Assembly (NCBI GenBank): GCA_900095095.1
Contig: FMBT01000490.1
Coordinates: forward strand, 1-64,000
DNA length: 64,000 nucleotides
Source of the DNA: Fragilariopsis cylindrus CCMP1102
Taxonomy: Eukaryota; Bacillariophyta; Bacillariophyceae; Bacillariales; Bacillariaceae
Direction: 5' to 3'
Both the position numbers and the translations under genes were made by a program. This document shows positions 17,330-58,421 of this stretch, piece after piece. The notes under the pieces were generated by a model. That model made no database searches. It was not told where the DNA came from and was given only the letters and a program-made list of their open reading frames with translations. The number at the start of each line of letters is the position of its first letter. Position 1 is the stretch's first letter.

Positions 17330-18870
17330 AATACCACCAAATTCCTTACAACAGGAATCCTGTTAAAGATATTGTTGCTTCCTTTACTTAATAGATACTT
17401 CTTTGTGGATCACTGCAGTGATCCACTTCTAGGACTTATGTTACTTGTGGATTACTGTGGTGGATCCCCTCCTAGGACTTATGTACACTCATGTTGGTTT
17501 TGTCTATTCATGTCAACAACAACATTGAACAATGATGGGTAAGAATTTGATGTGCTTATATGTGCTGATCAAGGCGTACAGGACAGTAACAACTCTGTTT
17601 TGTATATCTCTGATGCAACCTCTCATGACACATGCTGGGTTTATCTATTCCTGTCAACCAAACAATGTTCTAGAACAACAACAACACAAATAACCCTATT
17701 TTTCAGCAAAATGCACCACAAATATCTTATTTAAAGTGGTTGCAAGGGAGAACTTTTTGTTGGTTGGGTGCGGCAGCCTTTGGATAGTGTATGAGAACCT
17801 TGTGTTACCCTCCTACCACTTTCTTGTACCTGCGGTTGAAGAGTAAACTTGATTTTGCTGTGTGGGTATGCACAAAAATAACCGTATTTTTTCCAGCAAC
17901 ATGCAACACAAAATCTCTTATATGGAGTGGTTACAAAGGAGAACTTTTTGTTGGTTGGGTGCAGTAGCTTTTGGATAGTGTAGGAGAACCTTGTGTTACC
18001 CTCCTACCACTTTTTTGTACCTGTGGTTGAAGAGTAAACTTGATTTTGCTGTGGGGTATGCACAAAAATAACCCTATTTTTCAGCAACATGCAACAAGAA
18101 ATCTCATCTTCGGAGTGGTTGCAAAGGAGAAATGTGCTTTGTAAGAACTATTTGTTGTTCACTGCCTGTAGTTTTCTGCACATGTAACAGTTGTCACAAT
18201 AATTCATTTTGGTATAACACTGGTAGAACCACTACGTGGGTTTCATTCGTTTCAATGGCATTAAATCAAATAATCAATGACAATGACTAGTGTGTAAAAA
18301 TTTGCCACACTGTACACACTTCCTGTAAACTGAGCAATGTAAAAGTTGTCCAGCAATATTTGTGTATCACTGGTGGATCCTCTCAACTTCAGCACAACCA
18401 CAAGAAGTGCTGATGTGGTGTGTGAGAATTTGCTGCGCACTTCTTGTAAACTCAACCCTGTATAAGTTATCTAACAATATTGGTATGTGACTGGTGCATC
18501 CACTCCTGGCGCATATGCTGCATTCATAAAAGATGATAGTCAACAACATTTGGTGTGAATTTTATGTTTAAAGTTTATTCATGTAAAGGTTGCACACTGA
18601 GAGAGTAAACTATATAGCATTTTATTAGTATTATATCAGTGGGTATAGATCTACTCCTGCTGCATACTGGGTTATATCTTTCCAGTCAACCAAACAATAT
18701 TATGAAACAACAGCAAGAATAAGCAATGCTCACTATTGGTTGATACACACATCAATCACCTGGTGGATCCACTCCTCTGACCCATGTAGGCATGCGGCAT
18801 GTAGGTTCCATTATTAATTTATGTCAGCCAAATTTGATACATTTTTCAAATGGGAATTCTATTGCATCCA
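17330..18870. repeat. Diverged repeat field with GGTGGATCCACTCCT-type phrases
   Basis: The phrase (T)GGTGGATCCACTCCT and relatives recur near 17405, 17457, 18365, 18490, 18645 and 18767, often followed by GCATGCTGG and GTCAACCAAACAAT. The field also contains the better-preserved tandem array at 17693-18150. No protein-coding gene was found. Confidence 0.55.
17693..18150 (+). repeat. ~189-bp tandem repeat, about 2.4 copies
   Basis: Copies start at 17693, 17881 and 18071 (the phrase ACC[CG]TATTTTT..CAGCAA), spacing 188 and 190 bp. Each carries GAACTTTTTGTTGG, CCTCCTACCACTTT and TTGATTTTGCTGTG in that order. The same ordered landmarks recur in the array at 49910-50770. Confidence 0.8.
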
Positions 18871-29341: not shown

Positions 29342-30124
29342 ATGAAGTTTGCTGCTGCTGCTGCGATTACCTTGTTAGGTCTTACTGCATTCTCCTCCTC
29401 CACCATCAATTGTGTCAAGGCAAATGAATTGAAGTTACGTGCACGAGAAAAGATGCGAAGAGATAAAGCTGAACGTCAACTTCAAGCAAACGATGCTGGT
29501 TTAGTCTTTTCACGTGGTTATATTTGTATTACTAGACAACAAGATTTTGCTTTTGTTATTCCTCAACAAAAGAGTATTGTTCCCAGATTCAGAAAGTTGC
29601 TAGATCTCAATTTGTTAGGTTCATCAACAATCCAATCAGGTGGTATTTATGATCCTGCTGATGTACAAATTGTTGATCGTTTGGGTACATCTGCAGCTGA
29701 CAATTTTGATGATTTTTTATTTGGAAGAGGACAATTTGCGGGACAACGCCAACCAAAATTCATTCCACAGAAGGATCCAGGATTCTTTTTCAATGGTGAA
29801 TGTGTTGCAACACAAGTTGCAGGACCTCAAATTTTAGGACATTCATGCTTGTTTAACTTATGTTTAGGTGGTGGTGGATATAATTGTTTAGCCATCTATG
29901 CTGGATCTAAATTTGTTTTTAATCCATTGGAGGCAGTTTCACTTTCTCGTACCACCTTCGGTTTTGAAGATAACAACAATCCAGATTCAATTGTTCCTTC
30001 ATTGCCGCCAAGCTATCCAGGAACCATCATTGGTGGTACCGGTTTGTTTGTCGGTGCTGTTGGATATGTTGATGTTACAACTATTACTGGTAGTACTTTA
30101 ACTCCAGCTCGAGTTTTTGATTGA
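29342..30124 (+). CDS. Secreted protein with putative allene-oxide-cyclase/dirigent-like barrel, 260 aa
   Basis: A single exon starts with a clear signal peptide (M-K-F-A-A-A-A-A-I-T-L-L-G-L-T-A-F). The mature part has S-S-T-I-Q-S-G-G-I-Y-D-P-A-D, F-N-G-E-C-V-A-T, then C-L-F-N-L-C-L-G-G-G-G-Y-N-C, and ends G-T-I-I-G-G-T-G-L-F-V-G-A-V-G-Y-V-D-V-T-T-I-T-G. The last block resembles the T-G-x-F-x-x-A-x-G-x-V strand pair of allene-oxide-cyclase and dirigent barrels, though the match is loose and activity should not be assumed. A paralogue on the opposite strand at 38215-39244 shares all these blocks, which supports it as a true gene family. Four cysteines are conserved between the two, suggesting disulfides in a secreted protein. 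Confidence 0.8.
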   Translation: MKFAAAAAITLLGLTAFSSSTINCVKANELKLRAREKMRRDKAERQLQANDAGLVFSRGYICITRQQDFAFVIPQQKSIVPRFRKLLDLNLLGSSTIQSGGIYDPADVQIVDRLGTSAADNFDDFLFGRGQFAGQRQPKFIPQKDPGFFFNGECVATQVAGPQILGHSCLFNLCLGGGGYNCLAIYAGSKFVFNPLEAVSLSRTTFGFEDNNNPDSIVPSLPPSYPGTIIGGTGLFVGAVGYVDVTTITGSTLTPARVFD

Positions 30125-38214: not shown

Positions 38215-39244
38215 CTAGTTTTCTTCTGTTGAACCTTCTTCAACAGTAAGAATTGGACCGGTTGTACCACAGATTGTTGCAATATCTACAGTTCCCTCAA
38301 TCCCTTCGAAGCTTCCGGTGCCTCCAATAATTGTGGAAGGAAATGGTGGTGGAAGTTCAATTTCACCATTAAATGGTTCAGCATTCAATGATAAATCTCT
38401 TCCACCTCCAATTTTTTGGTTTTTATGGCTGTGGGTTAAACATCCGGTGCTACTATGTTGGACTGGTCTGGTGTGGTGTTGGGAATGGTGTTGGTACTGG
38501 TGTTGGATTTCGTGTTGGTGGTTTAGGATTGGATCTTGAAATCTGTTCTCCAACATCAAAGACAAATGACGTGCCAGAATAGAATGCAATACAATTAAAG
38601 CCACCACCACCTAAACAAATATTTAAATTACATGTATGTGATGTTATGGTAAAAGAAGCAAGAAATGCGTCTAGCCCACCCGATGCCAGCTGACGTTTGT
38701 TTTGGGGGAAAGGTGAAGGTGAATTGATAGCTGAAGTTGCAACACATTCTCCGTGATAAAAGAATGCGGAATCACCTGGGGGGACTGGTTGTTTTGGTTG
38801 GCGTCCACCACCAAATTTAAAACCACCAATTGCTTCTAAGGCATCGCCTTCATTTCCTCCGAAAGATTCAATGACTTCATCCGTTAAGTCATCCGGCCCA
38901 ACACCATTTAATTTATTAACGATCTCAATATCAGCCGGATCATAAACTCCCCCTTTCTGAATGGTGGAAGATCCTACCAAACTTGTTACACCTGTACCAA
39001 TGTTGGGTGCCCCATTTGGGAAAACGGTTACAAAGTTTTCCGGTTCAATAATAGTAAGATAGTTACGAAGATATTTATAATCTGTTGACGAGGATGATGC
39101 TAACTTTCTCTCATCAGTGTTGCCATCTTCCGTAGTAGCAGTAGCATTATTATCACCCATACCTCCTTTCGTACAGAGAACAGAAGGAACACAACAAGAG
39201 GTATGTGCCAGGATGATGAACTTTGCAGCTGTTAAGAGTTTCAT
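38215..39244 (-). CDS. Secreted protein, paralogue of the one at 29342 (putative AOC/dirigent-like barrel)
   Basis: The start M-K-L-L-T-A-A-K-F-I-I-L-A-H-T gives a signal peptide; an upstream in-frame extension to 39391 is less likely the start. Shared blocks with the paralogue are G-S-S-T-I-Q-K-G-G-V-Y-D-P-A-D, F-Y-H-G-E-C-V-A-T, N-I-C-L-G-G-G-G-F-N-C-I, and S-T-I-I-G-G-T-G-S-F-E-G-I-E-G-T-V-D-I-A-T-I. A Pro/Thr linker (N-P-T-P-V-P-T-P-F-P-T-P) separates the Cys-rich part from the barrel-like end, and one frame change near 38460-38540 falls in it. The gene is longer than its paralogue mainly because of this linker and an insert before G-G-L-D-A-F-L-A. Function is unknown; extracellular location is inferred. 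Confidence 0.7.
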
Positions 39245-40934
39245 GATGATGATGCTATGATTGATTCTTGTTGGTTGACTAATTGGTTGTGTTGTGTTGA
39301 TTGATGATATATTACGTTTGATGAGCACAGTAGTATCGCACTGTGTTCTTATTGCATGTACTTGGTGTTTTCTGTACGAAGCTATCTTCATGTAATATTG
39401 GTGTCATGTACTGGATCTCATAGCGCTTCATTAGGGCGCGATCTAAAGTGATTTGGATCTTATATGAGTCGTACGGGACTCAATGGATCTTATCACCTGA
39501 AGTATTCTCCGCAAGTTGCGCATTAGCTTTTCGAGAATTGCTCCGTATAGCTGGTGAAGAAGACTTACCAGGAGGACAGTGCTAGTTACACATATGGAAC
39601 TCAGACTGATCTACACCCGAATCTCATTGTCGAGGCATCATCGATATCTCCGACAGTTAAATGAGAAAAGCTATTTGGATATTGGGCACCCGGATGAAAG
39701 AAATGCATTGACACATGGCGGTAACGATGCTCTTAATTTTGACAGTCACCAGGAAAGCAAGAAAGAGGCTCGTAGACAAATGAAAGGAAGAGATTATGCC
39801 AACTTGTGATGCTTGCAACAAAAGTTCAATGGGGATCGTAAATTTCGAAGAAGCCTACGGTAAGTACCTTACTACGATTGTCTAACCTCCTTTCTAAAAC
39901 ATAGCTTGATTCTACTTTCTAATAATACTTTCGTCAATATATGATAATAGTAATGTAGCACTTTATTGCAACAAGGTCTGCCAGAAAGCACATCGGCGTA
40001 TTCATAGAACTGAATGCACTGCCAACCGTAAATGGATGGCATAGAACAAATTTGCTTAAATAACAACACCGTTCGACGAGAGACTCATCCACTTGATTAT
40101 CCTTCGATATGCATTTGTGAATGTTGAAGGGATTGGATTCATTCATTCAAACGACCGTACATAGAAAAACAGATATCAATAATCGCATCATCATGGTCAT
40201 TCAATCACGAAAACATTCAATACAAATAGTAATTTCCTTCCCTATTAACTGATATTTGTTTTTTTCGCGATGTTTTCAAATGACGTATTCATAAGGGGGC
40301 TTCGATTGTTTAAATATTTCGTACAAATTTTTATCTTATTCACGTAACTTACTGTAGTTGTGATTTATCGAAGGTTGTTTTTTCGAAATCGTCTTCTTTT
40401 TCATTGTGTTCGTACACCCGAATTTACAAACAAAGATACCACCATCAGCTTAAGCTTTATGTTGAGTCAACGATCGTGGTAAATTTTCTTGACACATCGA
40501 ATGCAGCCGAGTGGGTAGTTCGTAGTGACTCTCATTCATGTCCTCTCCTCAAAGAAGCATCGATGAAAATTTATGCATCCGATAATAACAGTTCCGTATT
40601 GGAATCTGAAGGGAAGATTCACATCGTCTCGTTACGGAATTACTCAAGTTCTGTGCAGACAAAACCATCTGCAGTGCCGGACAGCTATCAAACAAAGAAA
40701 GACGGTAGCAACGATGTTGTCAAGATTCTAAATGTCACGTCTTTTAAAGGCTAACCTTGGATAGATATCGATAGGAATCGCGAAATACTTGTCGAACGTT
40801 ATATTTAAAGCATCACTATTCTTCTCGAGGATAGATTGGCTTTCGATCCATCTCGAGTTCAGAAAAGAAAAAGAAGGACACTCGATATGATATCAGTACA
40901 GATTTAAAATGAAGTAAGATAAAGTAAAGGAGAG

Positions 40935-40965
<31 letters not shown>

Positions 40966-41238
40966 TAAACTGCTACGTGTACGACGAGAACATTGAACTG
41001 AACAGAATCACGGCGATGAATAGAATACGAAACAAATATCATAGATAGGTGAAGATTTGATATGCTACCAATACTAGTGCAGTAGAGCCAAATTATGCGA
41101 TTGCCTGTATAATAAATGAATAAGAAAGGAAAAAAACAGAAATAGTATTATATTATTGTTCTATATATTTTACTATTATGAATTTATCACAGATAGGCAG
41201 TGCAGTACCAAATCAATCCGTCTGATAATATATAATAT
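39245..41238. other. Gene-poor stretch with relic frames
   Basis: Frames at 39579-39809 and 40404-40754 (the latter 116 codons from a TTG, with L-K-E-A-S-M-K-I-Y-A-S-D) have ordinary composition but no family and no supporting structure, so they are listed here rather than called. A GA run lies at 40939-40964. Confidence 0.35.
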
Positions 41239-43106
41239 TTAATCACCACCAAAATAGTCACGTTGACGTTGTTCACGACGACGTTTATTTCCAGCACGTC
41301 GATCACGATTTTTATCAGTTTGAGATATAACAGGCTTATGACGTCTTGCTAAACCAAATCGATCTCTTTCTAATTTTTTCATATCAATGGAATATGGATC
41401 ACGTCCTCCACCTTCTGCACCACTTCCACCACGTATACCATCCATATTATAATTTTCTGGTACAGGATTCTTAAAACAATATTCTTCAATTTCATCATCA
41501 TCAAATGCATTCACTTTCCATAATGGATCCTTTCCGGACCATAATTCTTCTAATCGTAAATGATGACGTGTGGATGAATCCAAGACGTGTACAATATAAC
41601 TACCACAATCGACAATCATCCATTTGGAGGATAATGTATTCAATGTAGATGATCCGCCACCCATTGCTGCTTTATTTGTTGTATTTTGTTTGGCACCAGT
41701 GACACCAATTTCATGTAACTTACGTTCTTTCATATGATCAATTAATACACGTGATAATGTATATATTAAATAGGATGAGGATGAAGAAGAAGAAGAACCG
41801 ATTGTGTCACCACCAGCACTACTACCACCACCAGTACAAAAAATCATACCTTCACAACCAACACCCATTCGTGAAACATCCGGATTATCATAAACAATTT
41901 TAATATCACGCCCGCCATGTTCTTTCAGTAATAATTCAATTTCATCGGATGTTAACATAGTATGATGAATTGCTGGAACAACAACATTAATAGATTTTTG
42001 ATTATTTTGTTGTTGTTCTTGTCCATCAACATCCCCACCACCACCACCACCGAATACTGCACGTCGATTACGTAACCAATCAGTACCAACAGCAATGGTG
42101 TAGTAGTATTGTTACTATTATTATTAGGATTATGATTCTTTTCATCCTCTAATTCTTCTAATTCTAATTCTCTTTGTAATGACAATTCTAATTCTAATTC
42201 TTGTTGTTCTTTTAATTCATCCTCACGTTGTAATACAATATCTAATTTTGCTAATATTTCATCATCGGATAATGTTTCCATTTCATCTTCACTTAATACG
42301 AACAATGCTTCTGCTTCCTTTTCTACATCCTGTAATGCAATATCAAGACGTTCTTGTTGTTTCACTTGTCGTGACGATTCAATGATTGTATCATTAATAC
42401 GTGATGAGACTATTGATGGTGATGTTAATGATGTTGTTGTTTTACTATCACCTTGATCACTATTATTAGTTGTACGGATAATAGGTGGAACCCATTCTTG
42501 ATCACGTTCATCATCAATGTCCTTTTCATTTTCATCGTCGTCACTAGCAGACGCAGACGCAGTAGGAGGAAGCCATCCTTCATCATCATCATCATCATCA
42601 CTGTCATCATCGCTGGAATACTCTTCCATTATATTGTCACTGTCACTGTCACTGTCACTGTCGCTATCACTGTCGCTGTCACTGTCACTGTCGCTGTCAC
42701 TATCATTATCGTCATCACCACCGTTACCGTTACTCGATGTCGTCGTCGTTGAAAACGGAACAACAATTGAAGATCGATGCAGATAATGATTTCTCGTCTT
42801 CGACGATGTGCTGTTATTGTTCTCCCTCGTCATACTATTATTATTCGTTCTCGTTCTCGTCAAGTTAGAAAGTAGTGTCGTCGTCGTACTTGTAGTAGAA
42901 TAACAACAGCATCCGGAGGAGCCGGAGGAGGGGTTATAATAATAATTATTAATATTGGACCATGATGATGCACATGACGTCGTCGTCGTCAGATCAAATA
43001 TAAGTTGAGACGACGACGATGATGACGGTACAACTTGTACAATCCGTTGTTGTCGTGCTCGTCGTAACAATGATGATGACGATGATGTAGATGATAATCT
43101 CCACAT
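41239..43106 (-). CDS. Ribosomal silencing factor RsfS/Iojap (MALSU1-like), organellar
   Basis: RsfS binds uL14 and blocks subunit joining in bacteria and organelles. The C-terminal domain (41239-41958) has L-I-D-H-M-K-E-R-K, K-W-M-I-V-D-C-G-S-Y-I-V-H-V-L-D and L-R-L-E-E-L-W-S-G, the diagnostic Iojap core. The N-terminus (M-W-R-L-S-S-T-S-S-S-S-S-L-L-R-R-A-R-Q-Q-R) is rich in Arg and Ser and fits a mitochondrial presequence. Between them lie a long acidic region with about 14 Ser-Asp dipeptides (42640-42710) and a Glu/Leu coiled coil (about 42150-42330). One frame change near 42100 joins the halves through G-T-D-W-L-R-N-R-R-A-V-F. The long acidic insert is unusual for the family. Confidence 0.8.
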
Positions 43107-43518
43107 TATTATTATAACTCCAACTCCTTTTTGTTTGTTTTGTTTTGTTCCGATTTATATGCTTACAGGTTCAGGACTATTCCTTTTTGATTCCTCTTTC
43201 CTGTCTAGGGTACAGTACCACTCTTTTCTCTAACTCTAATAAGGTTTGCATCACTCCTGGTTTTGCATCATTACAAAGATTAAAGAGAGAAGGCAGAAAT
43301 CATCTATTTTTAATTTGATGGGGGTCGTGTTGTTGTTGCTTGCGTTGATTTTATGCGAGCTCGACGAGCGAATGGCAGACTGTGATGTTGCGTTGATTGA
43401 GCGAATGGGATGTTGTACTCGTGACTGGTTCATTCCCAAAATCGACGCACGCTACTAACCATCTTCCGTTCATACGTGGATAAAACATACATGTACTCTT
43501 CGAGGGATACCCCCCCCC
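43107..43518. other. Promoter-side spacer of the RsfS gene with a C run
   Basis: A TTTG/TTTTG run sits 20-45 bp upstream of the RsfS ATG. A C run at 43510-43523 marks the outer edge of the left inverted-repeat arm. Frames here show no family features. Confidence 0.4.
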
Positions 43519-44410
43519 CCCCCTGTCAACCAATCTCACAAATTCCACATGAAGATTTTTTACTCAGCATAGTATTGCCTTTAGTATGTTTTATACTGCC
43601 AGCAATGCAACACCACTGTACTCATATACACCAATACCATAACAATTGTATGAGGGAAGCTATTGCTTCACGCTTGCGCTACAATGCAGTACATTTTTCT
43701 CTTGATGTACCAATAGTATGGAATCAAGGCAATTCCCTTCCTGTAGCAATGATGCTAAAAGATTCTCCTCTGGCAATTAGGCTCTTATCGTGTGTCATCA
43801 ATAAAACAGGGTATGTGTACCCCTAAACCACTAGGATATACACAAAATGGCATATTTGGGCACCTTATTATGACCCATGGTATTGTTACCTTGCCATACA
43901 GCATGTCACAGTATGCTTGTATCTTTTTTTGCTACCTTCATTGGTAGTTGCTGTGGAGCAAGTGGAAGAGAGAGAGAGAGAGAGCTTCTATCTTTTTTGC
44001 ATATCTTCATTGGTGGTTGCTGTGGAGCACGTGGAAGAGAGAGAGAGAGGGAGGGGGTATGTCACTTATTAGCTGTGTATTCAAAGAGATCCGACTACAA
44101 TCACTCATTACGTTCCACCAACAGGCAGAGCAATAACAAGATAATAAGTGTTGCTGATTCTTAATTCATGTCAAGATGGTAAAACAAATCTATACCTTGC
44201 TTGCTAGCTAGGTAGCTACTATGCCAGGCTGGTGGTACAGGATCTGAAGGAAAAGAGATACTGCTCTTAGGCAGCTGGATAGGTACACTGTACTTGTAAT
44301 AGAAACATGCTGGTGTGTACTAATCATACAAGAAAATGCTTAGTGGAATCTAGGCTAGTGTAGAAATTTAACTAGTTAATTCTACTCTACAGCGTATCAA
44401 TCCTACAGAC
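43519..44410 (+). repeat. Left arm of a large inverted repeat flanking MCM6
   Basis: Starting at CCCCCTGTCAACCAATCTC, this arm matches the reverse complement of 48831-49740 nearly end to end with small indels. Shared landmarks in order include CACAAATTCCACATGAAGAT, AGGCTCTTAT..GTGTGTC/GGCATCAAT, GGGCACCTT..TATGACCCATG, the GAGA run after TGGAAGAGAGAG, TATACCTTGCTTGCTAGCTA, and TTAGGCAGCTGGATAGGTAC. A partly shared reading frame (about 43877-44160) is interrupted by the GA microsatellite and is not called as a gene. Confidence 0.85.
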
Positions 44411-44499
44411 TTTATCTTGCGATGCATTGGTCCCATTATTTTAATCTTTTCCTATACTATTAGATTAGTCTACTATGTTAGGATTTACTATTTTATTAC

Positions 44500-47400
44500 T
44501 TAATTAATTTCATAATTTGGATGGACAGCTAGTACTGTACTTTGTTCATCTTTTTTACTTTTAGGTACATCCCCAACTGTTACCAAAATACGATCAACAT
44601 CAATTAGGCGTCGGATAACTAGACTAATTTTCTTCTTCATTAACTCAAGTGTTTCTAATGAATCACCTATATCCATTCAATCTGTTCTAAGTACCAATCT
44701 AAACATTGTTTCCATGTCCAATACGTTACTTCTGTAGCCATACCACCACCATCTTCTGTTTTATTATTTGTTGTAATATCTTCTTGTTCTAATGCACGTA
44801 AATGACCAGCAATTGCATTAGTTATTGATTCATATTCTTCAAAGGAAATTTTTGTTTTCTTCTTTTTCTTCTTTTTGTTATCTCCTCCCGCGTCTGCTGC
44901 TACTACTCCTTCCGGCTTGACGTTTACGTCGCGTGTAGTACCACCACCACTACCACTAGTAGTAGCTTCATCGCCATCACCCCGATCACCACCACCACCA
45001 CTACCAGTAGCAGGATATTCTCCGGGATGGAGTACGTTTTGGGTTTCTAAACGTTGTGTTTCCGGCATTTGTGATTCAGGATTATTATTGTCATCCTCGG
45101 TCGTCGTCGTCGTCATCATCATCATCTTGAGCCATGGCAGATGTCTCTCCACCACCACCACCTCCAGATCCACCACGATAATTATCGTCGTCATCATCAT
45201 CGTCGTCGTCAACTTCAACATCTGTTGTTTCAACTTGAATGATTGATGTTTTTAGTAGACGATATGCTTCACGAACAAATCCAGGGGTGATTTCATCAGC
45301 ACAATGCAATCGTGCCAATGCTTCCGATAAACGGACCATTGATTCTAATTGACGTACTGTAATACGATATGCTGATCGTGATCGGCCCATAGTGTCACCC
45401 TGTCGTAACTTGCGATAGCATTCTACCATAACACGTTGGGATTCAACTGTAATTTTCGGATGTAATGTTTTTGCAAATTTGATGTATCGTCTCATTTGAT
45501 CAATAGTATATGGTGCCTTGGTAGTATTGGTATCTTCACAACGGTGTACTTTTAATATATGTTCAGCAACTTTACGATCAGCTTCTGGATTACAATCATC
45601 TAACACAACAAAGAATAGATCAAATCTACTCAGGATAGGTGCACTTAATGTCACATTGGCCTTTAATGTCTTGGTACGATCATATCGACCATATATTGGA
45701 TTAGCTGCAGCTAAGATCGATGCACGTGCATTTAATGTTGCTTGTATACCAGCTTTCGTGATACTAATTGTTTGTTGTTCCATTGCTTCATGAATCGCAA
45801 CTTGATCACGTTCATCCATTTTATCAAATTCATCAATACAACATATACCATTATCTGCTAACATTAATGCACCAGCCTCAACACAAAATTCACCTGTATC
45901 GGAATCGCGTTGTACAGCTGCTGTTAGTCCAGCTGCACTCGATGCCTTACCGGATGTATATACTGTTCTATTTGGTAAAAATGCATGTACGTATTTTAAA
46001 AATTGTGACTTTGCTGTTGATGGATCACCAATGATACAACAATTAATATCACCACGTAATTTAGTACCAGATGATGTTGTTTTATGTACACCACCCAAAA
46101 GCATTAATAGAATACCTTTTTTAACTTCCCTGTGTCCAAATGTATTGGGAACCATAGAATCAACCATTTGTTCATATAATTTTGGTGAATTACGCATTGC
46201 ACGTAATTCTGCTCGTTGAGATGTTGTCATTTCTAATGCAACCTGTTTCGTTGTTGGTTCGTCATCTAATGTCTTGCGGTTGGTTTCATTCATACCATAC
46301 ATAGCACCAGCCATAACTTGTTCATTTTTATTTGCTTGTATTAAACTTTCAACACTAAGAACAGAATTAGCACAAAACATGTACGGTATGTAAGTTCTTT
46401 AACGCCAAGTGCTGATAAACCACGTATACCCCCACCACCACCAGATGCTGCATCACTTGGTTTATATCCAGGTGTTTTACTAGATGTTGCAGAATCACCA
46501 GCACGTGCTAATGCTGATCCATCTGGCAAACCACTAATGAACCAGTAAAACAACTTTATCACCAGCCTTACATCGTTCCACCATTTCGTTTCTTAATATA
46601 ACATCCATTGATCTTGGCATTGATCCTGGTGGAATTTGGGAGGATGATTCTTGTACACGTAATTTTTGCCAATCCACAAATTCGGATCGTGTTGCTTCTA
46701 ATGTAAATCTCATTGGTGATCTATTCTTACAACGTGGATTTCTACACAATGTTGGTCTTGTATAATGATAATGTTGTAAAACTTTATCTGCCAATATCCA
46801 CATTTATCACATCGAAATGCAGCAACTAATAATTCAGGTCGGACATCCGATGTACGTGTAATTGTTCCTTGAAGACTAACTAATGAACCAATTAAATCGG
46901 TACGTAATGATCGTACTGATTTCATTTGTTCTGTCATACAATTAAAGAATGCAATAAAGAATACTAATGGATCTGATGGATTTGTATTACCACCACCACC
47001 TGAACCTGATCCATTAATACCACCATTATCATTATTTTGTTCCACATAACGATTTAATTCAGGATGACGATCAATCACAAATCCTGATACTGATCGTCGT
47101 AATGGTGTTTCAAATCGACAATATTCACCTTGGATTGCTTCTGCTAATTCAGGATCATCTCTAAGTAGATGTTGAAAATTAACAAATAAAGTGTTGGCAA
47201 AACCACCACTTAAATTTGCATTATCGTCATCGTCATCCTCATCGTCATCATTATCATCATTGAATGGATCACTTGCCGAATATTGACGACGGATTAATTG
47301 CCGTTTTGCTAATAAATCTGCTTGTTCTTGATATGGATAAATATATTGTGGTTCACCATCGGTAATCTCATTGTCGTCGTCGTCGTTTTGGCCTTCAGCT

Positions 47401-48209
47401 CTAGCAACTTCTTGTTTGCTGTTGTTGTCGTTGTTTCATTCATTTAGTTATTTTCGTTCGTATAACGTAGTATTGTGCGATAGCGTAATGCGGAAGACAA
47501 AAGAGAGAGAGACAGGGAGAGGGCTGTTTGTGAGTTGAAGTTCAGAATATCAGAATAAAAATATGATGTTTTTTCTTCTCTCTCCTATTTCAAATCGCAT
47601 AACGGCATAATGAAGCTCAATAATTTCTAAAACATTCGGACGCATGCATCCGAGAGAGAAATAGTGCCGATAGATTATGTTTCTTATTTGCTCGTCAATA
47701 ATCATATCAACTTTATTGCCAGCTTCCTACTGTAGCTTCATTACAGTTGTCACACCTACTACAGACAGCACTACTTACAAATTTTGTAAAAATTCTTCAA
47801 ATGCACCCCTAACTAATTCACCACTTTCATCTAATACCTCATGTGCAGCAACTATACCATCACCAACACCACCTGCATCAGCTGCACCCATTAATGCACG
47901 ATCAGCTTGTGCATCACGTCCACCACCACCTCTTCCTCCACCACCACCTGTTGGATTGCCGCTGGTACCTTCCATTGCAGCAACTTCTGCAGCAGCAGCT
48001 GCAGCTTCTGCTGCCTCTAATGGATCTTCATCATCATACTCATCCACCTCTTGCTGTTGATTATTATTATTTCCGCCACTAGTAGTAGCATTCGTACTAC
48101 GACTTTCTGGTGTAGCTGCTGTAACAGCTCGTCCTTCATCATCGTTTTGTTCACCACTCATACCGGGACGGTAATCATCATCATACATAATATCATCTTC
48201 ATCCATCAT
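44500..48209 (-). CDS. MCM6: MCM6, replicative helicase subunit
   Basis: MCM6 is one of six AAA+ subunits of the nuclear MCM2-7 helicase. Exon 1 (47779-48209) is acidic and Ala/Gly-rich; intron 47419-47778 (GTAAGT..ACAG) joins E-E-F-L-Q-N to F-K-Q-E-V-A. The zinc finger C-D-K-C-G..C-R-N-P-R-C is followed by [14 protein letters not shown]. Walker A is G-D-P-S-T-A-K-S; Walker B is C-C-I-D-E-F-D-K-M; the Arg finger is S-R-F-D-L. MCM6, not MCM2, is shown by [16 protein letters not shown] and [10 protein letters not shown], plus the C-terminal winged-helix part ending [11 protein letters not shown]. Frame changes occur near 46790, 46553, 46525, 46378, 45115 and 44672, with the last domain running past an apparent stop to 44500. 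It sits between inverted-repeat arms. Confidence 0.88.
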
Positions 48210-48830
48210 CCTTTTTTTTCTATCCCTTATACGTAGCTAGCTAGCTATTTCGTTAAACTCAAAAATTCCAATTGAGTCAGGTTCCTTTATTCTATATTTT
48301 CTTCTTCCCCTAAGTCAAGACTTGTCGCTTGTCTTCAATGCAATGAAATCAACGCTGGTGTCCACGTCCTTGTCGATGTTTGTGTTGTGTTGTGTTGTGT
48401 TTATTCTACGCTCAAAACTCTACGGTATGTAGATTTTCAATTTCGGCGCCTTAGCATTTATTTGTTTGTGTCATTGCGCATTGTCCGCGCCAACTCTCTG
48501 AAAAAAATGTGCTAAAACAGCTCGTCGGACGACGGACAGAGCCAAATAGTCTGTCATTGCTCCGATCTTTATCACATAGCATGATAGTTAGTGTTACAGT
48601 ATGTCAATACCTTTTTAACATATTACAGTAGTAGCTACTGTTCCACTCCATTTATGTACCAAGGTATTGATATACCATCAACATTCATGTATATGTGCAT
48701 AATCTTTCAAGGACAACAAAAAGAAGAGGAATGGGTGGGTCTATCATCATTCATAACATATCATCTCAAACAAGTCACTACTAGCAGCTAGATTTTGCTT
48801 GTACTACATACATGTTGCAAACTAGCTATT
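48210..48830. other. 5' flank of MCM6
   Basis: A GCTA run (48232-48245) lies just upstream of the MCM6 ATG and a GTGTT run at about 48384-48398. Frames here are unsupported. Confidence 0.4.
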
Positions 48831-49740
48831 GCCTGTAGGCTTGATTCTCTACAGAGTAGAATTGACTCAATAAATTTCTCAACTAGACTAGATTCCACCA
48901 AGCAATTTCTTGTTTGCTCTGGAGAGTACACAGAAAAAATTGAATACTCAGAGAAGCGGCATGTTTTGAATAATATTACAAGTACAGTGTACCTATCCAG
49001 CTGCCTAAGAGCATTATCTCTTCTCCTTCAGATTCTGTACCATCAGCCTGGCATAATAGCTAGCTAGCAAGCAAGGTATAGATCTATTCTACCATCTTGA
49101 TATAAACTATGAATCAGCAGCACTTATTATTCTCCCATTGTATTGGTTTCCTATACCAGCAATGTATTATTGTTCTGCCTGTTTGTGGGAGGTAATAGAG
49201 TGATTGTAGTCAGATTTCTTTGAGTACACAGCAAATAAGTGACATACCCCCTCCCTTTCCCTCTCCCTCTCTCTCTCTCTTCCACGTGCTCCACAGCAAC
49301 CACCAATGAAGGTATGCAAAAAACATACTACAAGCATATTATTGTGGCATGCTGCATGATAAGGTAACATTGTCATGGGTCATAACAAGGTGCCCAAATT
49401 TGTTATCTTAACATACCATTTAGTGTATATCCTAGTGGTTTTGGGGTACACATACCCTGTTCTATTGATGCCACACAATAAGAGCCTAATAGCCAAAGGA
49501 GAATGTTGCAGCATTATCATGACTTTTCAATGTTGCAGGGAGAGAAAGAACTTGATTTGATACTACTGGTACATCAGGAGCTAAGTTCCTATGTAGCGTA
49601 AATTGTCATGGTATTGCTCATGTGATGTACATGGGTGCAGTGTTGTTGCGTTGCTGGCAGTAAAGACATACTAAAGGCAATATTATGCTGTGTAAAAATA
49701 ATATCTTCATGTGGAATTTGTGAGATTGGTTGACAGGGGG
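48831..49740 (-). repeat. Right arm of the inverted repeat flanking MCM6
   Basis: Reverse-complement partner of 43519-44410, with the outer end GAGATTGGTTGACAGGGGG and the inner end GCCTGTAGGCTTGATTC. It also carries a CT run at 49250-49281 matching the GA run of the left arm. The outer boundary is followed at once by unrelated sequence and then the tandem array at 49910. Confidence 0.85.
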
Positions 49741-49909
49741 TGGAGGTTATTTGATCTCTGATGTTCAACTAAATGGTGGGTTGGGATGATGATGCTTCCC
49801 ATTCACAAGTAATACATCCTAGTGAGGACAGTGGATCAATTCTGCGTTCTAATTTACTTAGTGGTAGTTTAAATAATGAAATGTATGTATTTTGGACCAT
49901 ATGATTTTT

Positions 49910-50770
49910 GATCAGAAATGAACCACAAAATATCTCAAATACAAGGGTTGCACAGGACAACTCCAGATAAGTCAGGTGCACAAGCATCCACATAGTATAC
50001 TAGAATATTGTACTTGCCTTCTACACCTTTTCTGTTCCTGTGATTGCAGAATGAAATTCATTTTGCTGGTGTGGAAGGCACAAATTTTGATCAGGAATGA
50101 ACACAAGATATCTCATTTGAAAGGGTTGCACAGAACAACACCAGATGGGTCAGGTGCACTAGCATTCACATAGTGTACTAGAAGATTGTGCTTGCCTCCT
50201 ACAACTTTTCTGTCCATATGGTTGCGGAATGATATTCATTTTGCTGTTGTGGAAGGCACACAAACAACATGACTTTCGATCAGAAATGAACCACAGAATA
50301 TCTCATTTTTGAAAGGGTTCCATAGGACAACACCAGCTGGGTTGGGTGCACTAACATCCACATAGAGTACTAGACCATTGTGTTCCCCTCCTACCACTTT
50401 TCTGTTTCTGTTCCTGTGATTGCAGAATGAATTTCATTTTGCTGGTGTGGAAGGCACAAAATCAACAACATGATTTTTGAACAGAAATGAATACAAAATA
50501 TCTCATTTAAAGGGTTGCACAAGTCAACACCAGATGGGTTGTGTGCACTAGCATCTACATAGAGTACTTGAAGCTTATGTCTACCTCCTACAACCTTCCT
50601 GTTATTGTGGTTGTGGAATGAAATTCATTTTGCTACTATGGAAGGCACAAAAACAACATTATGATTTTTGAACATAAATGAACACAAAATATCTCATTTG
50701 AAAGGGTTGCACAGAACAACACCAGATGGTTTGGGTGTACTAGCATCCAGCATACCCATACCTACAAGGT
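49910..50770 (+). repeat. ~190-bp tandem repeat, about five copies
   Basis: Copies begin (GATCAGAAATGAA or GAACATAAATGAA) at 49910, 50089, 50278, 50479 and 50670, spacing 179, 189, 201 and 191 bp. Each contains AAAGGGTTGCACAG, AACACCAGATGGG, a CCTCCTAC..CTTTTCTGT block and AATTCATTTTGCTG. The order and several words match the array at 17693-18150. Confidence 0.85.
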
Positions 50771-51705
50771 CCTCATAATGCTTAGGTTCCTATGGAGGTT
50801 ATGAAGGTATAGGGCGGCATTAACCACAAAATAGGCCATTTTGGCCCAAAAACAGGGTTTTCCACTTTTCTGTGCACCTAAGCTGAATAATCAAAACAAA
50901 GCACCAAGAGTTAGTTCCCCTTTATATATATGGTGCACTCCATTCATATATTTTGGGATAATTCACCTTTTTGAGTGTACTGTATGCCCACAAAACACTG
51001 CAAATGGGCCATTTTTATTTTAGGGGTTATTTGCTGTGTGCTGTATGTGTGCCTACATTATGAGATACCAGCAGGCTTAAAAGACTAAGGAATATATCAG
51101 TTCTCCATCCAATAGGTCAATTGTAAACTTTATTGTTTGATTTTCCAAAAAAATGACGATGTAGGGGTATTTTCTTGATGCTAAAGTTGTTATTATATAC
51201 TACACTAACAAATACTAGTAAAATTTGCGCAGGATTTAGGTTTTATATTAATGGCTAATTCCACGCGGAGATTTATTCAATGCTTTCAGAACAGATCTCC
51301 CGGCGCGAAAATTCAAAAGAATATGGTACTGTACTAGTCTCGCTTGTATAACATACGTACGAATGTCACATATAGTACATACCTATTCATCCAAATCTTA
51401 GATTAGGGGGAAGTAGAAGTACTTCAAAGTACAGTACTGTATGTTTCATTGTTTCCCAAAACCTACTGGCCTTGTCATCCTCGCTCGTTATTTGAATTGA
51501 AAATTGATAAAATAAATAAATAAATCAAAAATAGGAAAAACCAAGCAGGTATCTGCTATCATCAAGATGACAAGCAAACCCACCGCTACACAAGTCAAGC
51601 ACAGCATGCGAACTACAGCCAACATGGTAATAGACGTACTGGTAACGGATTGAATCTAATAGAATTTCAAATATTATACCGTCCGAATGATATGAATGAC
51701 GATCG
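50771..51705. other. Gene-free flank of the tandem array
   Basis: Holds GGCCATTTTGGCCC (50842-50855) and a partner GGGCCATTTTTATTTT at 51006-51021, a weak inverted pair. Also GTACAGTACTGTA near 51429. No gene seen. Confidence 0.4.
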
Positions 51706-53871
51706 ATGAAGAGGATGGATATGGATTCTACAAATTCACACAACATCAACAGCAGCAGCAGCAGTAGTATGAACGCCAGTATTATCTCCCATCGTCAAGG
51801 TCATTATAATCATAACACCATCAACAACAGCAACAACAATATAGAGGAGGTAACAGTTGAGGAGGATCGGTATTGGTTTTCTTCTTCTTCTTCTTTTGCT
51901 TCTTTTTCTTGCTTATCATTATTGTTATTGGTATCAAGACTAATTAAACGATATTTTGTTGTAATAGGACGAGCAGGATCATCATCATTATTTTCTTTGT
52001 TAGCATTGATATGTGGTTTATTAACTCTTTCTAACGTACAACACTCTTTCCGAACAATTATTGAAACAGAAACACGAGTAATGGTAAATAGCATGAACGG
52101 GAACGGGAACATCGCAACAGTAGCTCAACAGGGAAGATTATTTAATCGAACCAATAATAATATAACAACAGCTCCTCCGACTCCTCCGATACTACCTAAA
52201 ACGAAGATCTTCTACCCGACGATATTGTCTACTAATAGTAATGATAGTAGTCCTGTAAATGCTGCAACGGCGGCAGCGACCACTATAGCAACTACTACCG
52301 AAAACAACAAAGACGAGAACGAATCACCACCACCATTACCATCACCATCATCAACAAGTATAATAACAATAGATCCTACATCCTTAAAACGAGGTATAGA
52401 CCTATTTCTTCGTAGTCATAATAATTATGATACAACCACCACCAATACCACCACCACCACCGATAATAAAAGTAGCAGTAACTATATTTGGGATCTATTA
52501 GAAAATTATCAAACTTATCATACCCATACCCATACCCATCATCATCGTAATCCATCTCACAATCACAGCAGCAATAATAATGATGTTGGTGATTATTATT
52601 ATTACTATTACGAACAAGATGAAATATCCTCCGAAATTATATGTGGTCTAGGTCCAGGAAGAGGAATGGAACAGGATGCTGGATATAAATTATTAGTAGA
52701 AAAAGTACGTATTATGGTTGATATTGATGAGCCTACTACTACTAATTATAATGATGATATGCCTAACGACGATAATAGTAGTGAGTCTCAACAACAACAA
52801 CCACAACAGCAACATGAACCACCCGCACCACCAAATCCAAATCCAAAGCCAAATCCAAAGATATTATGTCTTGTCTATACCTATTCACCAATGAGATATT
52901 TAGTACGGACACAGGCGATATTATGGGGAAGACAATGTGATGGTTATATTGCATTTTCAAATGAAACTATACCAGAATTGGGTATCTATAAATTACCAAA
53001 TGAATACTCAGGAGTAGAAGAAGAATCCTATAATAATATGTGGCAAAAAACACGTCGGATCTGGAAATATGTCCACGATCATTTCATGGAGGACTATGAT
53101 TATTTTTATATTTCTGGTGATGATGTCTATTTATTAGTGAATAATTTTCGTTCCTATATTCAAAATGAATTAGAATTGTTATCTGATTCTGATTCTATAG
53201 CATCAGTACCACGCCATTTTGGATCATGGCTTCCATCTAAATCAATGATAGCTGGTGGACCGGGTTATACGCTCAATAAAGCTGCACTACAACAATTCTT
53301 CGAAGCCACCATCACCACCACCACCACAGTAGACGGAAAAGGTAGTAATAGTAGTAGCAGTAGTAATACCTCAGCGATTTGGAATAATTGTTTATCTAAT
53401 AAACATGCATCGTATGAAGATCGATTTATGAGTTATTGTATGTCAACATTTTTAGGTATTAATGGTAATGATACAGATACACGTGATCCAATAACAGGGG
53501 AACAGTTATTTCATGATACAGATCCAGCAACATTATATCTATTTCGTTCTAGTAGTAATAATAAAAAAGGATCCTATTTTTCTAGAATGGCATCATCCTG
53601 GGAAGATCAACCAATGCCACAACAACAAAAACAACAACCACCACAAAATCACGACGTAGAACAAGTTGTTGTTGTTGGACCGAAACACGAACTTGATTCT
53701 GCTGCTAAGTACAGTATTTCGCTTCATCGGATATACACACCAACGTATATGGCAAGAATACATGCTATATTACATCATCATCATCCTACGACATCAACAT
53801 CGACGTCAATGGCTATATGTCCAATTGATACACCGTTAGGAAAAGGATTACAACGTCATTATCTGCATTAG
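51706..53871 (+). CDS. GT31-like glycosyltransferase (core-1 beta3-galactosyltransferase/Fringe type)
   Basis: A single exon of 721 codons encodes a type II membrane protein: a cytosolic Asn/Ser-rich tail, an anchor at about residues 91-110 (L-F-S-L-L-A-L-I-C-G-L-L), then a long disordered Asn/Thr/Pro stem to about 380. The catalytic domain has I-L-C-L-V-Y-T-Y, A-I-L-W-G-R-Q-C-D-G-Y, D-Y-D-Y-F-Y-I-S-G-D-D-V (metal-binding D-D-V near residue 472), G-G-P-G-Y-T-L-N-K-A-A-L, and Y-E-D-R-F-M-S-Y-C. That order is that of C1GALT1-type GT31 enzymes, which add galactose from UDP-Gal to O-glycans in the Golgi; the acceptor here is unknown. No introns or frameshifts. The ATG at 51706 is the first in the open frame. 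Confidence 0.85.
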   Translation: MKRMDMDSTNSHNINSSSSSSMNASIISHRQGHYNHNTINNSNNNIEEVTVEEDRYWFSSSSSFASFSCLSLLLLVSRLIKRYFVVIGRAGSSSLFSLLALICGLLTLSNVQHSFRTIIETETRVMVNSMNGNGNIATVAQQGRLFNRTNNNITTAPPTPPILPKTKIFYPTILSTNSNDSSPVNAATAAATTIATTTENNKDENESPPPLPSPSSTSIITIDPTSLKRGIDLFLRSHNNYDTTTTNTTTTTDNKSSSNYIWDLLENYQTYHTHTHTHHHRNPSHNHSSNNNDVGDYYYYYYEQDEISSEIICGLGPGRGMEQDAGYKLLVEKVRIMVDIDEPTTTNYNDDMPNDDNSSESQQQQPQQQHEPPAPPNPNPKPNPKILCLVYTYSPMRYLVRTQAILWGRQCDGYIAFSNETIPELGIYKLPNEYSGVEEESYNNMWQKTRRIWKYVHDHFMEDYDYFYISGDDVYLLVNNFRSYIQNELELLSDSDSIASVPRHFGSWLPSKSMIAGGPGYTLNKAALQQFFEATITTTTTVDGKGSNSSSSSNTSAIWNNCLSNKHASYEDRFMSYCMSTFLGINGNDTDTRDPITGEQLFHDTDPATLYLFRSSSNNKKGSYFSRMASSWEDQPMPQQQKQQPPQNHDVEQVVVVGPKHELDSAAKYSISLHRIYTPTYMARIHAILHHHHPTTSTSTSMAICPIDTPLGKGLQRHYLH

Positions 53872-54612
53872 CTTAGCTGGACATACGTTGGAATAGACAA
53901 TGCCATTGGTACGAAAGTTATACATCATCCCGCTGGTGCATGCGATTTATTCAAATCCTTTCGTTGCCACAACAGATGCGTGTGGAAGTGCTGTTATTGT
54001 AGGATTGTTTGTTATTATATGCGGTACACTGCAATAACGTGGTTCTTCTGTTACATACAAGAGTTTGCCGTCCTCTATGCGTGGAAAGTTACTCTGGATG
54101 GTTGTAAAAAGTTGACGAACGCTTCTCATCGCGAAACAATCCAGGTCTATCCTATACTGCATACCTCGTCCAGACTATAAACTACACATCTCTCAGAAGA
54201 TAATACGATCCGCAAAACGGGATATCTCTGGTGCTACTATTCAAGTTCTTCTTCGTCGCAACATCTGGTGCGTGTGTGTTTCTCTTCTTCTTCTTCTTCT
54301 TCTTCTTCTTCTTCTTCTATAAGAGCGACCTTCATCGTAAAACGATTACTGTTAGACGGTAGTAAATGGCAACGAACACTTCTCATTGGTGATAATACTA
54401 ATGCAATCAAGTGTCGATCTATACTGCAGTCCAACCTCTTTCGCAATATAGAACAGCATCTACAACTATTACTACACGAGAGTATAAACTATTGAGAAAA
54501 GGTGCTACATACGTCCTACAATATTGTGGCATAGTATAACAATATTTAACTAAAATACAAATGTAAATTAATATTACGAAGTAATCTTTCTACCAATAAG
54601 AATACAGATTAT
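53872..54612. other. Spacer with a possible diverged duplication
   Basis: On the minus strand, frames at 53947-54162 and 54237-54446 both contain L-D-C followed later by M-R-S-V-R about 270 bp apart, hinting at an old tandem duplication. A CTT run (54285-54317) lies inside. No family was recognised. Confidence 0.3.
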
Positions 54613-55119
54613 TTATCCTACCAATGTATGGTGTGTGCTGTAACCGGCAATCATAATATCTGTTAGTGCTTTATAAACCTCTAACCAACAAACTCTAGTT
54701 TTAGCATTAAATTTTAACGGTCCTAACATATCAGCCATACATTCTAATAACGCAACACCCATAATAGGGAACCATTCAGTCTTAACACCATATTTGGTTT
54801 TATGGGCTTCACCTAATTCTAGGAAGATCTCTGTTAACATATCAAGATCTGGTCCTAACATATCAACTGCCTTGTCTAAAATTAGTACAAAATGTTTTCC
54901 ATGGGCCAGAAATCTAGGACTATTAAAAAAATCATCATCTGATTTCATTGTTTTTGTATCAAAACCAAATATTTTCTTTGCTTCTGGCTCTAGAATAAAA
55001 AATTTAATAAATAGAATTTTACCTAATTCCTCTGCATAATTTGGTTTACGACGTAATGCCTCCCAACTATCCAAACAGCTTGATACTGTAGAATAACTCA
55101 TATCATCAATCATTACCAT
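54613..55119 (-). CDS. Single-domain globin
   Basis: A single exon of 168 codons. The helical pattern fits the globin fold: V-S-S-C-L-D-S-W-E-A-L (A helix), K-I-F-G-F-D near CD, then P-R-F-L-A-H-G-K-H-F with His at the distal E7 position, and L-G-E-A-H-K-T-K-Y-G-V with the proximal His F8 before W-F-P-I-M-G-V-A-L-L. Heme binding and O2/NO handling are inferred from these two His. The start M-V-M-I-D-D-M shows no targeting peptide, so it is probably cytosolic. Length is slightly above the typical 140-150 residues. Confidence 0.85.
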   Translation of the reverse strand: MVMIDDMSYSTVSSCLDSWEALRRKPNYAEELGKILFIKFFILEPEAKKIFGFDTKTMKSDDDFFNSPRFLAHGKHFVLILDKAVDMLGPDLDMLTEIFLELGEAHKTKYGVKTEWFPIMGVALLECMADMLGPLKFNAKTRVCWLEVYKALTDIMIAGYSTHHTLVG

Positions 55120-56173
55120 CTTTGTTGTTTGTTGTTTAATATCTGATATTTGTTATTGATTTATGCTGACTTTCTTTCGAGTGTTTTCTATGGAGCTTCC
55201 TTGTATTGATTTTGAATGTGAGGAAAAAGTAAACTGAACGAGGTGATCGAGTACACAATCTGATGTCTTTCGTGAAGAAGTTCAAAAATACGAACAAGAT
55301 GAGACATCGAATGCGCAAGTTTGTGAGCGATGTTATCATAGAACATGCTTCTTTGTCGCGTGTTTTATTATGTCATATAGAACATGCTTCTTTGTCGCGT
55401 GTCCGAAGGTTCAAATACGTTGAATAAATGTTCAAAGATCCATCGATTAATCGTGCGCTTAGCACAAACATGTTTTGATCGTAGAAATATATCAAGGCAA
55501 GGACCAAAAGCTTACTTAAGTGTCAACACAAAGAAAAAAAGACTTCAACAAAAATTGTAATATTTATGGAGTTATCCAAACCTGCTTCAAGTACCTATGC
55601 AAATGATGAAGTCAACTAGTAGGTATGTAAATAGCTGGGCAACAAAGCAAGCATAGATAGCCGACTTCAACGCACATTGCGAATCGAATGGGATTGAAAT
55701 ATGGACAATATCATAAATAGTAGTGAAAATTAGAGCTACCTTCACATATTATTCAGTTTCATGAGATTTGTCTGTGTCTAATTTATTGAGAGGAGATTAC
55801 ATATAAGCACGCGCTAGAATGGTCGTGATCGATCATCGATAGGAAAGACGATATATATATCCATCCACTACCAAGCCATGCCATTGTCGTCTTCTTTTTT
55901 AATACATTAGGCAGAAGAACATTGTCTGAGAAACAGATAAAATAAAGAAGCTATAATGTCTCACGCAAGACAGAAGCTTCAGAGACTACTGTACCGCGAA
56001 TGGCAACACGTAAAAACTACAGTGAGGAGCAAGTTAGAACAATAATAGAAGAAGTGAACGTAGTAGTATTACCACTGGCTATACAAAGCATTGGGAGTGT
56101 TACGCTAAAATATTGTGATCCATAATAATATCAATAGCTAGCTTGTAGTCGGTGTCCTACCGAAGTTGTTAGC
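55120..56173. other. Intergenic region with a 26-bp direct repeat
   Basis: An exact direct repeat, ATAGAACATGCTTCTTTGTC plus CGCGTGT less one base, occurs at 55338-55363 and 55377-55402 (39-bp spacing). No gene is seen in the remainder. Confidence 0.5.
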
Positions 56174-58421
56174 CTATATATCGTCGCTCACTTCTTTCAT
56201 CGCTTCTCTGAGAAACTCTACTACCTCAAAAATACTCGGCCTTTGTTCTGGTGCAAATTCGTGACATTGATCAATGATATAGACAAGTTTTGACTCTGCG
56301 AGACTTCTTTCTTTATATCTTGGATCAATGTAAGCCTTCTCGCCATCCATTACTCGCTGTTGCATTTTCGTATCGTTGTCTTCATCGTAAAATACCCACA
56401 ATCCAGTGAGTATAGAATATAGGTTGTTTCCTAACGAGAATACATCAACTTTCTCATCAAGATTATTGTTTAAATATTCTTCAGGAGATCGCCACTGGCA
56501 AGAAGGGTGAAAAGACAAAAAAAAGGTTTATTTGTATCAGTAAAAATGTATTACGGTAGGCATATATATTTTTTTCACACAGTAATATGTCCTTAACCCT
56601 GCACAAAAAAATAAAGATATATATAAATAAATAATAAACGCTTACATTTCCATTACCGCCGCCCTCTCCGTACTTGCAGTATGTTCCTTTATTGTCATCC
56701 CAGAGCATAAATTCAGCTCGATTAAAATCATTTAACTTCACCGTATTTCCATCGGAACTTAATAGATATTGTGAGAGTTGCACATCTTGATGGACAATTG
56801 CTCCATTGGGATCACCATGTAGATCGGCAAGTGCCTCTGCCATTTGGAGTGATATACGTAACTTCTCGATACTTTCGATATCATTGTAGGATGTTAACTC
56901 ATTTTCTTGTTGTTCTATTTGCTCTTTTGTAGTAAGGAGATAACCAGTACCCGGTACAGCCACATCCTCATAATCACCGAATGGAAAATATTCACTCATG
57001 ATAGCCATACCACAGAATCCATATATATCATATATTCGTGGACTGGATGTTAACCGATCCGCGACCATAGCATCCATCCGTACGTATTCAAAGTCACCTG
57101 TTTTGAAATCAATACTACAGTACACGTATGTATGTATTCATAGTATAATAAATTGAAGATGGGTTAGTTTCTCGTTCGATTAATCAACGTAAGACGGTAG
57201 TATCACAAAAAGACAAACAAAAAATAATGATATATATACAATGATGGTGCCTTTTAAACTTACCTACTAAACATTTCCTTGATGACGATTTGTTCCTGCT
57301 GCTGCTGGAATGAATGTTGTAGGCCAAATACTTGACGATAACTTCCTTCGCTGTTTGTTTAATTCAAATGAGAATGAGAATAAGAATGAGAATAATAAGT
57401 GATATTATAATAAATACAAAAAATAACAACAACCAAAACGATTGGAATTGAATATTTTAGTTTGTACAACTTACTTAATATACTGGAGATTATTTTTTAT
57501 ATCGACAAAGGATGTTTCAAACATGGTATTACAATTTTGATAATTCCGTTGATGATTACTTGTTTTACGACAGACCTGTCCGGGTATTGCATTTTGGAGC
57601 GTCTCCACATAGATACCATTGGTGCCTTTTACAAAATCATCATCGAAAGCATAATACGCATCATTGTCATCATCATCGGGTGCCAGAATTGGATCACGAT
57701 AATCTGTTTGTAATAAATAATCATTATTTGGATATATCTGTCGTGGTTTTGCTACTACTACACGTTCCTCATAATATTCTGATTCTGATTCTGATTTTAT
57801 TATATCCCGATCATAATCATCACGAGGACCTAAATTTAATATATCATCATGATGCAGATATTCTTTCATTTCCTTCTCAGTCATATTCGAATGCAATAGT
57901 TTAGTAGCCGGTTGGGAAACTGCAATTAATTTTCGTCTTCTTTTCGAAAATGATGCTGGTGCTTCATTAGTATTCTGAAATGATATATGAAAGTCTGTCA
58001 CAGTCATCATTTCAGCAGCAGTAGCTTGCTGTCGTTGTTGTTTCCGAAGAAGATTACTATTCTCCGCCACCGCCGGACTTTTAATAAATAGGAAAGAGGC
58101 AGTAACCATAGCGAGAAGGAATATAGACAACCTTCTTAAATGCTGCCAAATAAAAACTTTTGTGTAACTTTGGACGGAAGAAAAAAATGTGTGATATGAT
58201 GATGATGACATGCTACTCTTCCTTCGTTTCCTCCATAATGAAGGCTTTGCTGAGAGAGGATTTACGTCATTATTATTATTACTACTATGTCCTGAAAAAT
58301 TGTCGTCTATTGTAGTGTTGTCGACTACCGTTGTTTGGCGATTTCTTCGTCCTACTCCCGGCCCGGTCCGACGTTTTAACCTATCGTCTGTTGTCATGAC
58401 ATCCATGAATATTATGTTCAT
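56174..58421 (-). CDS. Transmembrane kinase-like protein with DFN in place of DFG
   Basis: Four exons (57475-58421, 57264-57350, 56646-57114, 56174-56494) splice in frame through GT..AG introns. The N-terminal part is basic, with a membrane anchor at about residues 92-112 (L-S-I-F-L-L-A-M-V-T-A-S-F-L-F) and a lumenal or external stretch with acidic tracts. The kinase domain has a Gly-loop-like G-S-Y-R-Q-V-F-G-L, the ATP Lys in I-V-I-K-E-M-F, then I-V-H-Q-D-V-Q-L-S-Q-Y-L-L where H-R-D-L-K-P-x-N is expected: catalytic Asp kept, Lys and Asn replaced by Gln. D-F-G is D-F-N (K-L-N-D-F-N-R-A-E-F), and the APE region is R-S-P-E-E-Y followed by D-V-F-S-L-G-N-N-L-Y. This variant set recurs in diatom kinase-like families; activity is uncertain. 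Confidence 0.8.

Follow-up and report, generated by a model that had tools for sequence, protein, structure and literature searches.

Foldback and TIR transposons with captured genes are characterized by long inverted arms that enclose a host gene, and template switching of the MMBIR type generates a local inverted copy at whose junctions short homology is possible. Besides, inverted duplications flanking inverted segments consist of originally single-copy DNA, a block of ~1 kb being among the examples, and in Drosophila such inverted duplications are left at inversion breakpoints by staggered breaks, as described in the available excerpts of three reports (PMC3355041, PMC5080602, PMC7584159). 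In one example, deletions reduced a duplicate copy, according to the accessible part of the source (PMC3355041). Our literature searches found no paper on diatom MCM6 and inverted repeats, no paper for the combination of terminal inverted repeat, gene capture, and Pack-TIR, and, going by titles and the beginnings of abstracts, none on the topic of inverted repeats or segmental duplication in diatom nuclear genomes.

Here, we describe a locus at which two ~0.9 kb arms stand in inverted orientation on either side of MCM6. The window, that is, the whole stretch of DNA that was analysed (64,000 bases), corresponds to positions 1-64000 of contig C160 (78,434 bases) in an assembly of 67.9 Mb and 818 contigs. 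Most likely, the locus bears the scar of a local rearrangement, of an already known kind.

Limits, divergence, and content of the arms

In the initial annotation, two arms matching in reverse complement had been placed at 43519-44410 and 48831-49740. This match was recovered by three methods, and the limits of the two blocks were refined by a few bases (Table 1). Local alignment of arm against arm reaches a score of 2595. By comparison, the highest score among 100 shuffles is 401, and random positions outside the arms do not exceed 466 in the window; the gapped alignment of the arms continues into the flanks at low identity. When the 400-base flanks are tested apart, the outside ones score 87 (200 shuffles: mean 110, maximum 168) and the inside ones 143 (200 shuffles: mean 137, maximum 200); the homology of the arms stops at their edges, the flanks being at shuffle level. 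Both arms adjoin a C-run at the outer junction, which makes this junction compatible with microhomology, and the outer end of the left arm lies at the C-run that precedes TGTCAACC.

Table 1. Features of the MCM6 locus (window positions) and places of the other MCM genes (contigs)
Feature	Position	Strand	Basis or remark
Left arm of inverted repeat	43513..44411	+	pairwise alignment, flank tests
Right arm of inverted repeat	48830..49746	-	pairwise alignment, flank tests
Core between arms	44412..48829	.	two 400-base ends alike only at shuffle level
MCM6	44500..48209	-	exon 1 ~48209-47780, intron, exon 2 ~47430-44500, several frames
RsfS-family gene and upstream ORF, left neighbour	41239..43106	-	Pfam match in ORF 41239-41958
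Minisatellite, period ~192, just outside right arm	49898..50754	+	related to a minisatellite at 17684-18131
MCM2	C56		best PDB match, piece searched
MCM3	C440		best PDB match
MCM4	C178		best PDB match, piece searched
MCM5	C265		best PDB match
MCM7	C90		best PDB match, piece searched
MCM8	C139 and C313 (99.6% identical over 3.3 kb)		best PDB match of C139
MCM9	C276		best PDB match, pieces searched

The arms are 87.3% identical over 806 aligned columns, with 102 substitutions (60 transitions and 42 transversions; K2P distance 0.14), and 74.5-76% identical with gap columns counted. They differ by 19 indels of 1-57 bases, and a 69-base tandem duplication at 43915-44053 of the left arm is missing from the right one. 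Divergence along the arms is roughly even: blocks of 50 aligned columns contain 37-48 matches each (p 0.027 in a chi-square test). BLAST (E <= 1e-5) found no further inverted pair of at least 100 bases in the 118 kb examined, a small sample made up of C160 (78.4 kb) and of a 40 kb portion of C265; the next best inverted pairs in C160 are 86 and 64 bases long.

Concerning the content of the arms, a coding function was rejected since 14 of the 19 indels are not multiples of three and since the stop-free stretches that match have little length and are distributed among five of the six left-arm frames. A structured RNA was likewise rejected, Rfam giving zero matches at E <= 1 across 42800-51000. 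The arms behave as an old duplicate of non-coding DNA. With a divergence of 0.13-0.14, the arms differ about seven times as much as the two right-arm alleles do (0.019), and nearly as much as the full allelic blocks of highest divergence located rightward (~12%, 50952-51751).

Copies of the arms in the assembly

The left arm gave five matches at E <= 0.001 and six at E <= 10 against the whole assembly, and the right arm five; all correspond to the MCM6 locus or to contig C814, which carries an allele of the right arm. The copies found in 67.9 Mb thus total two arms and one allele, and the multi-copy arms that the initial annotation had led us to look for did not materialize. In the same line, the 31 bases following the outer C-run were searched with a tolerance of 3 mismatches and have three occurrences, in the left arm, the right arm, and the C814 right arm, each time with 0 mismatches, and the reversed control had 0 matches in the assembly. 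As a positive control, a 2 kb retroelement insert of C814 (see below) returned 21 matches, namely itself and 20 on 13 other contigs. The weakest of these have 63-64% identity, so that arm relatives of far greater divergence would escape detection; moreover, the DNA search passes over very common words, and its scoring is limited to the best candidates. A very old arm family is a leftover possibility at this search sensitivity.

Outside the assembly, one exact arm motif had 0 matches in viral contigs and a plasmid search gave no match. The MCM6 protein yielded 591 and 600 pattern matches in the prokaryote genome_contigs and the viral_contigs, respectively, none being confirmed. Such an absence of relatives says little, since these collections hold prokaryotes and viruses.

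The enclosed gene and the MCM family

The proposal that the core holds only MCM6 with its intron was borne out: one gene is recognised there, on the minus strand, and it retains an intron, whose splice site was placed by eye. Its ATPase fragment is closest to MCM6, the six best PDB sequences all being MCM6 with a top score of 476.5 bits versus 306.3 bits for the best non-MCM6 sequence, and it possesses the MCM6_C winged helix, which together assign it to MCM6. MCM_OB, the ATPase, the lid, and MCM6_C score above the Pfam cut-offs, and MCM_N below (21.1 of 24.9 bits).

The 429-residue ATPase fragment is open. Exon 2 as a whole runs through successive overlapping frames from 47435 to 44500, with at least five frame changes: two lie within single domains, MCM_OB and MCM6_C each being split over two frames, and the others are deduced from overlapping ORFs. 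The earlier figure of about six frameshifts was therefore close, five being counted here. The idea of a decaying captured copy fared less well, given that the domains are above their cut-offs save MCM_N and that the defects seen are frame shifts.

A search for the MCM family returned 16 matches, which fall into 11 places, each on a contig of its own. MCM2, 3, 4, 5, 7, and 9 have one locus each and MCM8 is found on two near-identical contigs. For C276, the 121-residue piece scores 123.6 bits with MCM9 versus 112.7 with MCM6, and the 421-residue piece 143.3 versus 59.9 bits. Neither this family search nor the best PDB matches revealed a second MCM6 locus, the two weakest places, C133 and C651 (26 bits), being left unassigned. 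When compared with the assembly, the core has 36 matches, among which, beside itself and C814, three are 72-73% identical over 167-377 bases on contigs with other MCM genes, the remaining ones being short (<= 47 bases); no second copy of the core was found in the assembly. The additional MCM6 that had been looked for was thus not found, one MCM6 being detected in the assembly.

Origin of the inverted repeat

At the sensitivity of the search, the arms exist as two copies and one allele, are inverted, have sharp edges, show no coding signal, and surround one MCM6. This anatomy fits a staggered-break scar in number, orientation, size, edges, and uniqueness, and it upholds the initial suggestion of an inverted segmental duplication, with a unique block present as two inverted, sharply bounded copies. 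We infer a single ancestral block, and an inversion of the small MCM6 segment through staggered breaks as the origin of the inverted duplication of this unique non-coding ~0.9 kb block, an explanation that we hold with about even confidence.

In such a scenario, one originally unique, non-coding block of ~0.9 kb would have been duplicated once, in inverted orientation, around the MCM6 segment. With staggered breaks, the small MCM6 segment would invert, and fill-in at one breakpoint would restore on both ends the stretch that lies between the staggered nicks, thereby leaving an inverted copy of it to the left and to the right of the inverted piece. The two copies would then drift apart, with no visible function, to ~13% substitutions plus indels, and MCM6 would remain a working single-copy host gene. 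Some points count against the inversion: both known right-arm haplotypes are oriented alike, 4 kb would be small for an inversion, and the uneven divergence (p 0.027; 48/50 matches in the outermost 50 columns, 39/50 in the innermost) is not needed by a purely neutral scar. If the inversion is true, MCM6, a core replication gene, would be surrounded in this non-model eukaryote by a microinversion scar that can be dated, and the locus would be a further case of a mechanism documented in Drosophila.

A template-switch or break-induced replication error might instead have copied the 0.9 kb block across MCM6 in inverted orientation, MCM6 itself never being inverted, a possible but doubtful course of events. 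The anatomy would be the same, with a unique block, two copies, sharp edges, and a C-run at the outer junction, and the accessible part of one report adds that repair alone could also account for inverted duplications (PMC7584159). The two processes predict identical arms. However, a templated copy would require long copying into a site 4.4 kb off, and no positive evidence separates it from the inversion.

It is improbable that a mobile element of very low copy number inserted twice, or that the arms are the long terminal repeats of one foldback/TIR element enclosing MCM6. The sharp outer ends and the identity of the 31 bases after the C-run in all three copies would speak for an element. Nevertheless, no other arm at E <= 10 and no other terminus at <= 3 mismatches occurs in 67.9 Mb, although the same kind of search readily detects a retroelement, and neither a second MCM6 nor a target-site duplication was found. 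As regards the latter, sought just outside the arms as had been proposed, the 55- and 58-base stretches at the outer edges share words of at most 5 bases, out of register; such a duplication could have decayed by age. Capture of MCM6 by a TIR or foldback element, the reading first put forward in the initial annotation, is therefore not supported and was rejected: in the assembly, neither a further copy of the arms or their terminus nor a donor copy of MCM6 was found, and no target-site duplication is seen. A broken-looking gene that is flanked by an inverted repeat is not necessarily a captured one.

The arms run TG...CA, and a solo-LTR reading was also considered and rejected, with no flanking duplication by eye and no other copy.

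The second haplotype and the quality of the assembly

Contig C814 (11,962 bases) is allelic to 47848-57583 of the window, and has the right arm in the same flank context on its inner and outer sides as well as MCM6 exon 1 in the same orientation. Without gaps, allelic identity is ~99% over 47848-49362; in 400-base blocks, it is 97.5-98.8% between 49352 and 50551 and 88-96% beyond 50551, with 84% in the last, partial block. Near 50.55 kb, within the minisatellite, identity thus declines from ~98-99% to ~92%, which may mark a boundary of recombination or of loss of heterozygosity, or else a chimeric contig.

Between the two right-arm alleles, 916 aligned columns contain 17 substitutions (98.1% identity), to which indels of 30 and 1 bases are added. 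The 30 bases, opposite 43647-43673 of the left arm, are absent from the window right arm, where they were most likely deleted since C814 keeps them and the left arm nearly does so. The left arm has the C814 base at 10 of the 17 substituted sites, the window base at 3, and the base of neither at 3, and is gapped at the remaining one. Furthermore, the C814 right arm carries the 2 kb insert (L006:1528-3522), the window representing the empty site near 49352-49362. This insert is flanked by an 11-base direct duplication of CTGCATGATAA, and contains a 167-base internal tandem duplication and a 531-residue open frame with a zf-RVT domain (28.5 bits, cut-off 27.5); several of its matches elsewhere retain just one end. 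Its multiple copies, the one-ended matches, and the zf-RVT domain lead us to read it as a 5'-truncated retroelement of the non-LTR type.

Near the end of C814, its MCM6 exon 1 shows four single-base indels and one two-base indel relative to the window over ~360 bases, from which it follows that uncorrected indels probably exist in the assembly. Since the longest open frames of MCM3, MCM5, MCM7, and MCM8 reach 697, 666, 649, and 926 residues, respectively, the error rate would have to be locally high at MCM6. For MCM2, MCM4, MCM7, and MCM9 as well, the ATPase domain is broken into two or three pieces, which may be due to introns or frame shifts, and one MCM4 piece contains a stop. Assembly indels are the likely cause of the MCM6 frame shifts. 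As C814 reaches only part of exon 1, there is still room for a heterozygous decayed MCM6 allele.

That the left arm or its junctions would be a misjoin is improbable. The left flank (40200-43512) has no allelic contig in the assembly, where it gives, beside itself, 25 matches of at most 83 bases, so that the left-arm junctions are covered by C160 only, and the exon 1 indels together with the approximately five frame changes of MCM6 make indel errors likely. Yet a hairpin artefact yields near-identical arms, whereas 102 substitutions and 19 indels separate these two, and the right arm with both its flanks is present in two contigs; arms diverged by 13% with indels, one of them recurring in C814 with the same flanks, are thus unlikely to be artefactual. 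The artefact that had been envisaged at first is consequently improbable for the arms, and is retained as the likely cause of the frame shifts of MCM6. Finally, an active inverted-repeat pair between which the MCM6 segment flips in the population, so that the orientation of MCM6 and the arm serving as its upstream region would be polymorphic, is highly improbable.

Surroundings of the locus

The RsfS-family neighbour is transcribed away from MCM6. The minisatellite outside the right arm is related to another one at 17684-18131, both having a ~190-base period and being 68% alike at a distance of 32 kb. Two ORFs, 29342-30124 (+) and 38453-39391 (-), have an 86-base match in common (29839-29923 / 38639-38555) and a cysteine- and glycine-rich motif that is similar by eye; they match no Pfam family. 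Several tandem-repeat arrays occupy the contig end at C160:75531-78268 (L039), and C160 perhaps ends there because of them.

Comparison with known systems

Foldback and TIR transposons with captured genes likewise display long inverted arms around a host gene; unlike them, the arms described here come without other copies or a target-site duplication, and the enclosed MCM6 is the sole copy found. Template-switch/MMBIR inverted duplications, as known from the available portions of two reports (PMC2621351, PMC10766183), are another system of comparison, from which the present locus differs in that its junctions are too old to read and in that no further copies or complex rearrangement are seen. 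With respect to the Drosophila cases, the enclosed segment is here only 4.4 kb long with one gene, and its un-inverted order is hypothetical. Nevertheless, the arms resemble the staggered-break duplications of Drosophila, as these appear in the available excerpts, in that ~1 kb of DNA is found inverted on both sides of a segment (PMC3355041, PMC5080602, PMC7584159).
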